Below, in pieces: positions 26,337 to 40,940 of a stretch of DNA of 43,092 nt. The notes beneath the pieces are model-generated. The model searched no databases, was not told where the DNA came from, and saw only the letters and a list, made by a program, of their open reading frames with translations. This DNA comes from Candidatus Zipacnadia bacterium (GTDB lineage Bacteria > Armatimonadota > Zipacnadia > Zipacnadales > UBA5352): positions 1 through 43,092 of the forward strand of contig JALGVE010000020.1 in assembly GCA_029820045.1 (NCBI GenBank), read 5' to 3'. How positions within the stretch are numbered: position 1 is the stretch's first letter; every line of letters begins with the position of its first letter. A program made the position numbers and the translations under genes.

Positions 26337-26388
26337 ACGGGCGTGGGGCCGTGAAACATGGCATGGACGTTGCGGTCGCGAAGCAGGG

Positions 26389-26563
26389 GCCCGACATTCG
26401 TGTCGGGCGGACACAGAGGGCCCGACATTCCTGTCGGGCCGACACAGGGGGCCCGACATTCGTGTCGGGCTGACACAGGGGGCCCGACATTCCTGTCGGG
26501 CTGACAGAGGGGGCCCGACATTCGTGTCGGGCGGACACAGAGGGCCCGACATTCCTGTCGGGC
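26389..26563. repeat. Six-unit tandem array of 20-nt palindromes, exact 31-bp period
   Basis: Units start at 26389, 26420, 26451, 26482, 26513 and 26544, exactly 31 nt apart. Each is GCCCGACATTCGTGTCGGGC or the same with CCT in place of CGT in the loop. The two versions alternate strictly (1, 3, 5 = CGT; 2, 4, 6 = CCT). The 11-nt linkers are near-identical (GGACACAGAGG; CGACACAGGGG; TGACACAGGGG; TGACAGAGGGG; GGACACAGAGG). Every unit can form an 8-bp-stem hairpin on either strand. The array lies between the divergent starts of the ior/paaK operon and the methylase gene. Constant linkers and the absence of cas genes argue against CRISPR. A single related unit lies at 151-170. Confidence 0.92.
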
Positions 26564-26593
26564 GGTGAGTCTGAAGGAACGAGGGCTTGACTC

Positions 26594-27565
26594 GTGCGCC
26601 TTGGTCAGTTCTTCACCCCGCGCCCGGTCGTGGACTTCGCCTACGACGCCCTTGAGCTGGTTGGCGCTGAACTGAAGCGCGCGACGCTCATTGATCCGTC
26701 CTGCGGCCCGGGTCAGTGGCTGCTCGCCGGGCTGGAGCGAGGTCCTCAGCTTACCATCGGGTGCGATTGCGACCCCGCAATGATCGAAGGCTGGCGCGCT
26801 GCCGGGCTGACCGAGCATCCCGACTGTCTGCTGCAGGTCGCGAACGCCCTGCTGCCTGGCGTGCTGCCCGAGGAGCACTTCGATCTGGTCGTTGGCAACC
26901 CGCCCTTCGGCACCAACCTGAGCGACGCCGCTGAACACACGCTGAGGGCGATCGCCGGCAGCTATGAGCTCTGGCGTCCTCCCGGCCCCCCGCGTCTCCT
27001 TGCGCATGGGATGACGAGCGCGGAGAGGACGCGACTGCGCCGCTTGCCGTTGGAGGTGCTGTTCCTGGAGAGGTTCGTGCAGCTCTGCCGGCCGGAGGGG
27101 TGGATCGCCATCATCCTGCCTGAGGGGATCATGGCGAACGCCCGCTGGCTCCATGTGCGCGAGTGGCTGCTGGACACGGTGACCGTCAAGGCCGTCGTGG
27201 GTCTTCCCCGCCGCACCTTTCACCGCCACGGTACTACCGCTAAGACATGCCTGCTGCTCGCGCAGAACACACCGCCGTCCGAAGATGGCCGTTCCCTTCC
27301 CCTCGTCCCGCTGCGTGGGACTACGGGTGACAGGCCGCCACGCAGGGCAACAGGGCGGTTCAAGACCTCCCGAAACGACATTGTCGGGCTGGAAGCCCGA
27401 CCTACGCGGAGTCTTGAAACAGCTTCCAGCATCGTTGCGCTGGCCGAGGTGGATGAGTGCACAGCGGAGTGTTTCGCGGCGCTGCTCGCGGCCTGGCGCG
27501 CGGGGCATGAGCTGACTGATGACCTGCCTGACGGCCTGCTCCCACCGCCGGTGATGCGCTTGTAG
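26594..27565 (+). CDS. N-6 adenine DNA methylase-like protein (HsdM/Eco57I type), orphan
   Basis: 323 residues from the GTG at 26594, with GAGGG 8 nt upstream. The N-terminus LGQFFTPRPVVDFAYDAL is the usual start of type I and related gamma-class N6-adenine methylases. DPSCGPGQWLLAGL is the AdoMet motif I, and VVGNPPFGTNL is the catalytic NPPF motif. EVLFLERFVQLCRPEGWIAIILPEGIM is also family-typical. No specificity (HsdS) or restriction subunit is nearby, and it is shorter than HsdM (about 500). Residues about 235-275 are an Arg/Thr/Pro-rich linker produced by palindromic DNA inserted in frame (27358-27420). It may be an orphan methylase or a degrading remnant of a restriction system. Confidence 0.8.
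   Translation: MRLGQFFTPRPVVDFAYDALELVGAELKRATLIDPSCGPGQWLLAGLERGPQLTIGCDCDPAMIEGWRAAGLTEHPDCLLQVANALLPGVLPEEHFDLVVGNPPFGTNLSDAAEHTLRAIAGSYELWRPPGPPRLLAHGMTSAERTRLRRLPLEVLFLERFVQLCRPEGWIAIILPEGIMANARWLHVREWLLDTVTVKAVVGLPRRTFHRHGTTAKTCLLLAQNTPPSEDGRSLPLVPLRGTTGDRPPRRATGRFKTSRNDIVGLEARPTRSLETASSIVALAEVDECTAECFAALLAAWRAGHELTDDLPDGLLPPPVMRL
27358..27420. repeat. Palindromic repeat inserted in frame within the methylase gene
   Basis: Inside the coding sequence, GTCGGGCTGGAAGCCCGACC (within 27383-27405) forms a hairpin. It is the same element as the intergenic copies at 35471-35532. It is flanked by an outer inverted pair, TTCAAGAC (27359-27366) and GTCTTGAA (27411-27418). The whole is about 63 nt, a multiple of three, so the frame stays open and encodes roughly 21 residues (RFKTSRNDIVGLEARPTRSL). 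Confidence 0.75.
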
Positions 27566-27631
27566 AGGACTCAGGTTCGCTTAACTGCGCTGCCAGCGAA
27601 GCTAGTACTTACTTGCGCGGGTCCGCGACGT

Positions 27632-27682
27632 TATGGAGGGGCCGAATGGGGAAACGGCCCGCAGGGCCGTGGGGCCCCCATC
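27632..27682. terminator. Large stem-loop after the methylase gene
   Basis: ACGGCCC and GGGCCGT form a perfect 7-bp stem with GCA loop. It is enclosed by GGGGCCGAATGGGG pairing imperfectly with CCCCATCCGGCCCA. It lies about 70 nt past the methylase stop. There is no U-tract, so intrinsic termination is uncertain and it may simply be another repeat. Confidence 0.4.
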
Positions 27683-27961
27683 CGGCCCACCGGCTCCCTT
27701 GATGGGCGCCGCCACCTCGGGGATGGTGGGTGCCACTGAACTTGCACGGCAGTTAGCGCGAGGACGCACGTACGTGTATACGATGTGGTAGAACGGGGAG
27801 CAGTGACAGGCGTCAACCCGTTTGTGCCGGCAGCTCCCCCACGTCCCTCGAAGCCCCGCAGGGGCAGAGTGGGATCACCTGCCGAAGCTTTGGGCAGACG
27901 AGGGCCTCGCGCCTTCCAGAAATGCAGAGGGCTCGGCAGACGAGCAATGTCGTTGCCGCGC

Positions 27962-28144
27962 GGAGGGGCCGGTTTCCACACCGGCCCGTCGCGCGAAGCG
28001 CGACACGTCGTAGGTCCTTGAGTTGCCCGCCAACCCCGGGGCTGTGCTAGCGCCCTGCACCGCGAAGGGCGCCGGGCCTCCCGCCTTCGCCGAGGCCTCG
28101 GCGGACGAGGCGGCCCGCGGGCCGGTGTGGAAACCGGCCCCTCC
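27962..28144. repeat. Perfect 26-nt inverted repeats flanking about 131 bp
   Basis: 27962-27987 and 28119-28144 are exact reverse complements over 26 nt. The core GGCCGGTTTCCACACCGGCC is itself palindromic (7-bp arms, 6-nt loop). The enclosed 131 bp have no open frame with family features. Outside this pair, a looser inverted pair (about 27892-27931 with 28208-28250) gives a nested arrangement. It could be a short non-autonomous element or two repeats inserted in opposite orientation. Confidence 0.75.
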
Positions 28145-28368
28145 ATTAGGGCGCCATCGCCTTCGGAGGTCGGATGCCGACCGCCGCGAGGGGTTCCTGC
28201 TCATCCCCGGTCGTCTCGCATTTCTGGAAAGTGACGAGGGCGTCTGCCCTCACAATAGCCGCGTCCAGCCTTCGCAAGCGCTTCGTCTGCGCGTCACCGC
28301 GCGGACGGAGGCCTCCACCGGGTGAGCGCGGGCAGGTGAAAGCGCGCCCGCGGTCAATAGAGCAGGTA

Positions 28369-29037
28369 ATGAGCCTGATGAGGTCACGAGGTGCACCCGG
28401 CTCTTGCATGGCGGCATGCGTCGCGGCCATCCTCGCGGCGCTGCTCAACGCTGGCTCGTGCGCTGCGAGCCACGCGGACGGGTTGGCCGCTGACTTCGCC
28501 GCCGACCGGGAGGGCGCTGGCCGCGCCGCGCTCGTGTTGGCGCGGGAGGCCTTCGACGCGTGGTGCCTCCGCCACGAGCAGATTGAGCCGCCCGATGACC
28601 TCCCGCCTCCGCTGATGCGGCGCAGTGGCGTGTTCGTGAGCGCGATCCTCGGCGACGCCCCGCGCTGCTGCATGGGGACTCTCTACCCGACGAGGGCGAC
28701 GCTGGCCCAGGAGATAGTCGCCGCCGCTACCGCCGCGGCCGGCATGGACCTTCGCTTCCCGCCTATCAGACCGGACGAGCTGAAGCGGCTTCGCCTCGTT
28801 GTCTCCATCGTTGACCCCCCGCAGCCCATCTCTGACCCCGCGCCTCTCGACCCTGTTACCGATGGCCTCGCGGTCAGGAGCAGCCTGCGTTGGGGCGTGG
28901 TGCTGCCGGGTGAGACGCCGCACCGGGACCTTATGATCAAGTGGGCCCGCATCCGGGCCGGGGCAAGCGAGAATGATGCCGTGGACTTCTTTCACGTCCG
29001 CGCTTTCAGGATAATCGAGCCGACGCGCGACGAATAG
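28369..29037 (+). CDS. AMMECR1-domain protein with probable signal sequence
   Basis: 222 residues from the ATG at 28369; ATG at 28378 is equally possible and Shine-Dalgarno support is weak. The N-terminus (RSRGAPGSCMAACVAAILAALLNAGSCAASHADG) looks like a signal peptide, with cleavage near SHA-D or a weak lipobox at AGSC. The rest is AMMECR1-like: GVFVSAIL, then PRCCMGTLYPTRATLAQEIVAAA in place of the usual LRGCIG motif, then DLRFPPIRPDELKRL and VVSIVDPPQPI. The function of AMMECR1 is not established, and most members are cytoplasmic, so export is unusual. It lies 21 nt before the alpha-2-macroglobulin gene, suggesting one operon. Confidence 0.75.
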   Translation: MSLMRSRGAPGSCMAACVAAILAALLNAGSCAASHADGLAADFAADREGAGRAALVLAREAFDAWCLRHEQIEPPDDLPPPLMRRSGVFVSAILGDAPRCCMGTLYPTRATLAQEIVAAATAAAGMDLRFPPIRPDELKRLRLVVSIVDPPQPISDPAPLDPVTDGLAVRSSLRWGVVLPGETPHRDLMIKWARIRAGASENDAVDFFHVRAFRIIEPTRDE

Positions 29038-35324: not shown

Positions 35325-35687
35325 CAGACGGTTCCTCTTCCTTCGCGTAGGTCGGGCATCCTGCCCGACGTCGTGCTTCGCCGATCCTCTGAAGCGCGTC
35401 GGGCTGGATGTTACTTCTCGTAGGCGCGTAACGTTCAGCCCTTTTCAGCGTTTCATAACCTTTCCTCACAGTAGGGCGGGCTTCCAGCCCGCCACGATTG
35501 ACCTCGCCAGGCGGGCTGGAAGCCCGCCCTACCAAGGACAAGAGACCCATTATACCGCGGTAGTCCCGCCAGGGAGGTTGGCCGCCCGGCCCATGATCGC
35601 CCTTGATGCGACGTTATGACATCGTGACACATGCTGCGTTATGCTCCTTCGATAAGTAACAGGAAAGCCCGACCTACGCGTGTGAGT
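35325..35687. other. 363-nt repeat-rich intergenic region
   Basis: No gene is visible. TAGGTCGGGCATCCTGCCCG at 35347-35366 is one hairpin. GTAGGGCGGGCTTCCAGCCC (start of 35471-35493) and its reverse complement within 35510-35532 form a perfect 23-nt inverted pair, each also self-palindromic. A half copy, GCCCGACCTACGCG, lies near 35668. The element is the same as the one inside the methylase gene at 27383-27405. Confidence 0.65.
35471..35532. repeat. Inverted pair of GGGCTTCCAGCCC palindromes
   Basis: 35471-35493 and 35510-35532 are exact reverse complements over 23 nt, 16 nt apart. Each half is itself a hairpin (GGCGGGCTTCCAGCCCGCC). It lies upstream of the Gfo/Idh start and downstream of the fused E1 stop. 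Confidence 0.85.
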
Positions 35688-40263: not shown

Positions 40264-40940
40264 GTCAACCTCCGGAATCGGCAGTGGCTACGGCATAGGA
40301 TGGCCCGGCGAAGCCATGGGCCTCCTCCGATGCAACTTCGCTCTCCGGGTGCCGCTGTCCTTCTGCGAGCCTCGTCTTGGTCGTGCGCAGGTCGTACCGA
40401 GGTCGTACGGAGCGCGGGGCTTCAGCCCCGCTGACGGTTCCGGCGGGTAACATGCGTCAGCCGTGGCAGGACTGAAGTCCTGTCCTCCGCACGGCACGGC
40501 GCCATGCGGCAAACGGCCATGCGGAGCGAGCGTCGGCCTGGTCGTGCGCAGGGCGAGGCTTCAGCCCCGCTGACGGTTCCGGCGGGTAACATGCGTCAGC
40601 CGTGGCAGGACTGAAGTCCTGCCCTCCGCACGGCACGGCGCCATGCGGCAGACGGTCATGGGGAGAGAGCGTCGTCTTGGTCGTGCGGAGGGCGGGGCTT
40701 TAGCCCCGCCGGGCGTTCTGATGGCGGACATGCGTCAGCCGTGGCACGACTGAAGTCCTGCCCTCCGCAGGGCGCGGCTGGCTGCGGTACGGCTGCCGGA
40801 GAGGCTGGTGATGATGGCATGGCGCAGGGAGCCAGGGAGGAATCTCACTCGCGCGGGACAAGTACACCCTTACGCACACGCTGCATCACCATCCCGCGGC
40901 GAGGCCGCATGCGCGCTGCCGATGAAGGAGCTGCGCCGTC
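40264..40940. other. 677-nt divergent intergenic region with triple tandem repeat
   Basis: It lies between divergently transcribed genes. It contains three tandem copies of a roughly 140-bp unit (about 40380-40790, described separately). Before and after these there is no gene with family features. Short frames in it only translate repeat DNA. Promoters for both flanking operons must lie here, but I cannot point to convincing -35/-10 pairs. Confidence 0.6.
40380..40790. repeat. Three tandem copies of a ~139-140-bp structured unit
   Basis: The core TTCAGCCCCGCTGACGG recurs with period 139-140 (40421, 40560, 40700). Each unit contains, in order, GTCGTGCG, a GGGGCTTCAGCCCC hairpin, CATGCGTCAGCCGTGGCA, the hairpin GGACTGAAGTCC followed by CCTCCGCA, and GGCACGGCGCCATGCGGC in the first two. 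The first copy has about 22 extra nt near its start. The third copy is more diverged (GGGGCTTTAGCCCC). The units are longer and more complex than the other repeats in the window. Confidence 0.8.

Follow-up and report, generated by a model that had tools for sequence, protein, structure and literature searches.

The occurrence of a palindromic repeat within a small N6-adenine DNA methylase gene raises the question of whether a mobile element has inserted in frame into a working gene, or whether the repeat-like stretch is native protein, a lesion in a dying gene or a fault of assembly. The window (i.e., the whole stretch of 43,092 nucleotides that was analysed) is contig C113 of a 2.6-Mb host genome of 173 contigs, about 60% complete, from the uncultured and GC-rich lineage Candidatus Zipacnadia/WS1 (Armatimonadota).

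The Methylase Gene and Its Insertion

The gene and the stretch of interest within it are located as follows.

26594-27565, plus strand: host gene, small N6-adenine DNA methylase of 323 aa (open frame, N6_Mtase match, orthologues)
About 27287-27430, plus strand: stretch with the insertion (net 141 nt or 47 residues, plus one ancestral codon)

The methylase frame consists of 323 codons without any stop that would mark a dead gene, and its product matches the N6_Mtase profile (PF02384) with E=2e-13. Orthologues of this protein were detected in 22 of the 46 genomes of the class, the host's own counted, and each of the nine other genomes searched in the family has one. Single-sequence scans of genome contigs and viral contigs revealed no close relatives of the methylase, and its plasmid and phage matches are distant, with best listed identities of ~33% or less, most of them ending before the insert. 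Positions 26386-26565 are occupied by a 5.8-copy tandem array of a 31-bp palindromic unit (GGGGCCCGACATTCCTGTCGGGCGGACACAG), the end of which lies 28 bp upstream of the methylase start.

The window protein was aligned (MAFFT) with 14 orthologues, all from outside its genus. A block of 47 residues is unique to the window protein and is absent in all 14 orthologues, none of which carries these residues as native protein, and both flanks of the block align. The residues preceding it (TAKTCLLLAQNTPPSED) have counterparts in the orthologues, the tail following it (IVALAEVDEC...LLPPPVMRL) is conserved in them, and the codon-position GC is coding-like on either side; one of the peptides that run across the insert is NDIVGLEARPTR. 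Because the orthologues lack this stretch but retain the protein sequence that flanks it, the stretch is, as judged from these sequences, a genuine in-frame insertion of 141 nt net. A sequence-only reading of this DNA, which had placed a palindromic repeat in frame in the methylase gene, is borne out in this respect, but its estimate of about 63 nt and 21 residues covers only a part of the 47-residue insert.

Composition of the Insert

The insert is a mosaic of two repeats, namely an 80-bp composite element and a stretch of about 62 nt that resembles a second and looser family of GTAG-tagged palindromes. The parts of this mosaic, together with related sites in the window, are listed below.

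27287-27348, minus strand: left half of the insert, diverged second GTAG-tagged palindrome, (Y)TGTCNNCCGTAGTCCC...GGGAC (C90 match, related sites)
27349-27428, minus strand: composite element with imperfect terminal inverted repeats around a GTAG-REP core (alignment, covariance model)
27359-27366, plus strand: left inverted repeat, inner part, TTCAAGAC
27383-27405, minus strand: GTAG-REP core, GTAGGTCGGGCTTCCAGCCCGAC (genomic copies, copies in relatives)
27411-27418, plus strand: right inverted repeat, inner part, GTCTTGAA
35347-35369, plus strand: variant REP core with a compensating A/T change, GTAGGTCGGGCATCCTGCCCGAC (core match)
35471-35532, no strand assigned: two REP cores in inverted orientation (BIME-like pair), intergenic

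The REP core is present in 57 copies in the host genome (at most 3 mismatches; control matches 0) and in 11 of the 21 genomes searched, the host's included. Four matches are found in the window, at 27383, 35347, 35471, and 35510, where 0.00 were expected. As in GTAG-tagged REPs, which bear this tetranucleotide at one end of a palindrome of 20-40 nt and are dispersed in many copies far above chance, GTAG is found at the palindrome end in the methylase core and in most of the other copies. The helix of the core is 95% paired and shows compensating changes (both-sided changes at two pairs, and GCATCCTGC variants), in a small sample for which shuffles of the whole structure give similar pair-change counts. 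Inverted pairs of REPs, an organisation of the BIME/REPIN type, were observed at 35471/35510 and on contigs C7, C91, and C4. A tandemly amplified REP cluster, in which copies of GTAGGTCGGGCTT(T/C)CCAGCCCGAC lie ~84 bp apart, was also noted at G000:C62:8347-9101 (L088). The possibility that the insert is native methylase sequence resembling a palindrome by chance, or a lineage-specific domain, is in keeping with the frame being open throughout, but it can be given next to no probability when the residues are missing in every aligned orthologue, the core is a genomic repeat for which no copies are expected, the segment is predicted to be disordered and REP inserts recur in unrelated genes (see below).

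The 80-bp unit around this core aligns nearly gap-free with copies on contigs C57, C22, C157, C49, C170, C146, and C72. Its terminal inverted repeats, with the consensus TAGARGCYGTTTCAARACC and the end motif GARGCYGTTTCA, comprise 18 pairs with 74% of cells paired, as is characteristic of MITEs. The structure of the whole unit is 81% paired versus 28-44% when slid, and, as DNA, the 81-nt element folds more favourably than its shuffled versions (z=-2.8). A covariance model built on eight copies recovered all eight of them with E<1e-12, thus giving eight strong genomic copies, and detected four weaker copies in the host genome plus related ones chiefly in one sister genus, G003; for the window copy, which was in the training set, model R1 gave E=3.9e-15 and ends at 27349-27428. 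The tetranucleotide CTAG is present at both ends of the C57 and C22 copies and at one end of other copies, and the dinucleotides flanking the methylase copy are AA/CA, with no clear target duplication visible there. The outer inverted pair that had been pointed out earlier exists as described, with TTCAAGAC and GTCTTGAA flanking the minus-strand core, and this arrangement at the methylase spacing is found at a single place in the 2.6-Mb genome (control 0). The same element had also been said to lie at 35471-35532; the two sites do share the 23-nt REP core, but the outer pair belongs to the copies on the seven contigs named above. The 35471 copy was accordingly rejected as an example of the 63-nt unit, as only the core is common to both.

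The left half of the insert contains the GTAG-tagged palindrome GTAGTCCCACGCAGCGGGAC on the minus strand (27305-27324) and shows a 52-nt match of 81% identity (E=4.8e-6) to contig C90. Among the loci examined, 11 sites related to this family were found when up to 4 mismatches were allowed, and the reversed control gave 0. A stricter, fixed-length pattern for this second palindrome family matched no more often than in the control, and hence the assignment of the left half is less certain; by sequence resemblance, it may be a member or a fragment of a second GTAG-tagged repeat.

Probable Tolerance of the Insert by the Methylase

On the strand that is read in the methylase gene, the sequence of the REP core contains no stop codon in any of the frames. 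An AlphaFold model based on 15 sequences has a mean pLDDT of 80.5 and a pTM of 0.81, and pLDDT values below 50 are limited to residues 1-3 and 234-277. Residues 234-277 are modelled as a disordered loop between the strands 218-224 and 282-286, with a well-defined catalytic fold. The inserted residues thus probably form a floppy loop in an otherwise intact methylase fold. All columns that are invariant across the 15 aligned methylases (the 14 orthologues and the window protein), including the NPP motif, are retained in the window protein, and from its sequence and predicted fold we infer that the enzyme still works. The gene could instead be dead or dying, with the frame across the insert open by luck: an insertion of random length keeps the frame one third of the time, the comparison is with proteins of other genera, and the N-terminus, near the tandem repeat, is ~5-7 residues shorter than in the orthologues. 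We regard this as unlikely, however, given the retention of the invariant columns, the lack of any stop, the well-formed fold that is predicted and a tail that still matches the orthologues beyond the insert.

It is also conceivable that the insert has been selected for a function, such as an mRNA hairpin or a new loop tuning the methylase. REPs near the ends of genes can act on mRNA (Di Nocera et al., 2013; PMC3733652), and the folding of the 81-nt element as DNA noted above would be consistent with such a role. However, as RNA the whole insert shows nothing unusual in its folding (z=-0.97), the insert is conserved in no orthologue and no REP of the methylase kind is found at the orthologous genes, making a selected function very unlikely.

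Other In-Gene Copies of the Repeat

The REP copies at the loci whose flanking DNA was retrieved were also searched for ORFs that span the REP and have coding-like codon-position GC on both sides. The sequence-only reading had proposed scanning the genome for other in-frame copies, and two further genes of the host genome stood out, one of them a firm case and the other a probable one. The first, a PfkB-family sugar kinase (G000:C38:33732-34871; L208), has 58 extra residues in frame around the same REP. These residues are absent from all nine family orthologues, and the catalytic GAGD motif lies downstream, in frame; the kinase insert is composed of several palindromes. The second is a lytic transglycosylase on contig C106, which probably carries another in-gene insert, with the REP in a variable linker ahead of the SLT domain and the exact extent of the insert uncertain. 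In an order-level relative, the REP likewise lies within long coding-like frames at loci L125 and L135, which are candidate in-gene copies.

The recurrence of the same kind of insert in a second gene also bears upon the suggestion that the methylase insert is an assembly chimera in a MAG. Short repeats can mislead assemblers, and the locus was judged from the assembly, but a chimera would rarely rejoin one gene in frame and the in-frame junctions lie within a 43-kb contig, so that we consider this explanation extremely improbable.

Relationship to Known Repeat Elements

REPs of the GTAG and CGTC types lying within genes, among them clusters of repeats that encode 43-82 residues, were published in 2013, and GTAG REPs lie within many genes of Opitutus terrae, Thauera, and others (Di Nocera et al., 2013; PMC3733652). 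In-gene GTAG REPs are thus already described, and the methylase case adds to a known kind. The elements studied here resemble those REPs in their GTAG tag, GC-rich hairpin, high copy number and inverted pairs and in forming in-frame inserts as single or grouped repeats, but their sequence is different and a part of the copies reside in an 80-bp unit that is bounded by terminal inverted repeats. No report of REPs in the host's phylum was found in the literature examined.

In-frame palindromic elements were known in Rickettsia (Ogata et al., 2000, 2002; reviewed in PMC10969869) before the 2013 work on REPs, and each of them, according to the review, encodes a conserved peptide (PMC10969869). The likeness to these elements that had been suggested holds for the outcome, i.e., a palindromic repeat in frame in functional genes, absent from orthologues and tolerated in the protein, in genes whose function we infer. 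It does not extend to the element itself, which is of the GTAG-tagged REP type. The peptides encoded by the REP in the three genes (VGLEARPTR, VGRASSPPR, and RRSGFQPDI) are unlike one another and are read in different frames or from different strands, the scale is far smaller (two firm cases and one probable) and the lineage is unrelated and GC-rich. An uncultured GC-rich phylum joins the lineages whose proteins have gained sequence from palindromic repeats, and for two of its genes the orthologues provide a clean control.

The MITEs of TA-targeting DDE transposons of the IS630/Tc1-mariner type are short elements without coding capacity that have terminal inverted repeats. The composite unit shares all of these features, and CTAG is found at the ends of several of its copies. 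It differs from MITEs in that its core is a GTAG-REP hairpin, the methylase copy is without TA at its ends and no transposase with matching ends was found by an end-pattern search. The two inverted REP cores at 35471-35532 and elsewhere are similar to BIME or REPIN pairs, whereas the in-gene unit consists of a single core of the REP family and a different palindrome.

Proposed Mobilisation and Placement at Stop Codons

The host genome contains two genes for transposases of the RAYT (REP-associated tyrosine) family that score above the NCBIfam cut-off and one just below it. No copy of the REP found in the methylase flanks the three RAYT genes of the host, in a genome ~60% complete, or at the RAYT loci of relatives that were examined. 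Locus L038 has a RAYT-like gene with flanking AAATAGGTGACTGTCCCTATTT repeats, which are not of the methylase type. A TA-targeting DDE transposase would also be compatible with the inverted ends of the unit and with the terminal CTAG of several copies; the end-pattern search for an autonomous partner with matching ends gave short units only.

Overall, the explanation that we favour, with a probability of roughly 0.87, is that a mobile GTAG-REP unit inserted in frame and antisense in the methylase gene. A non-autonomous GTAG-tagged palindromic repeat of the REP type, within an 80-bp unit with terminal inverted repeats, would have entered the 3' part of the gene at a site adjoining what may be a fragment of the second GTAG-tagged repeat. 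The gene would have survived through an orientation of the REP that is free of stops in any frame, a net gain of 47 whole codons, and an exposed loop near the C-terminus as the site, and because the insert is placed in this loop, between two strands, the enzyme would still fold. The spread of the unit may depend upon a transposase that works in trans, which could be a RAYT-type HUH enzyme with the GTAG hairpin as its substrate or a DDE enzyme with the terminal repeats as its substrate, and a benefit to the host would be unnecessary.

The least expected result concerns the placement of the composite unit relative to genes. In the host genome, 7 of the 12 composite copies have, at one of their two ends, three final bases that are also the stop codon of an ORF that is coding-like and at least 100 codons long, at an offset of exactly 0, and 3 of the 7 copies examined from the sister genus are likewise positioned on a stop codon at offset 0. 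In GTAG REPs, TAG stop codons are frequently provided by the repeat termini (Di Nocera et al., 2013; PMC3733652), whereas here it is the end of the unit, rather than the GTAG tag, that coincides with the stop. This placement could reflect either the avoidance of damage or insertion into a CTAG target that genes seldom contain other than at their stops. On a tentative reading, to which we give clearly less than even odds, the unit would be a transposable element homing on the ends of genes and spreading harmlessly via stop codons, and the methylase copy would be a rare in-frame miss that was tolerated. The placement provides a testable example of how a repeat can spare its host. The loci with offset 0, at all of which the stop of the neighbouring coding-like ORF is TAG or TAA, are L232, L237, L243, L245, L247, L249, and L253 in the host genome and L233, L238, and L248 in the sister genus.

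The window region downstream of the methylase (27566-28383) is rich in further palindromes. These include a perfect 27-bp inverted pair, GGAGGGGCCGGTTTCCACACCGGCCCG, at 27962/28118, and at 40401-40817 a 139-bp unit is found in three tandem copies, each with two different palindromes, GGGCGGGGCTTCAGCCCCGC and GGCAGGACTGAAGTCCTGCC.
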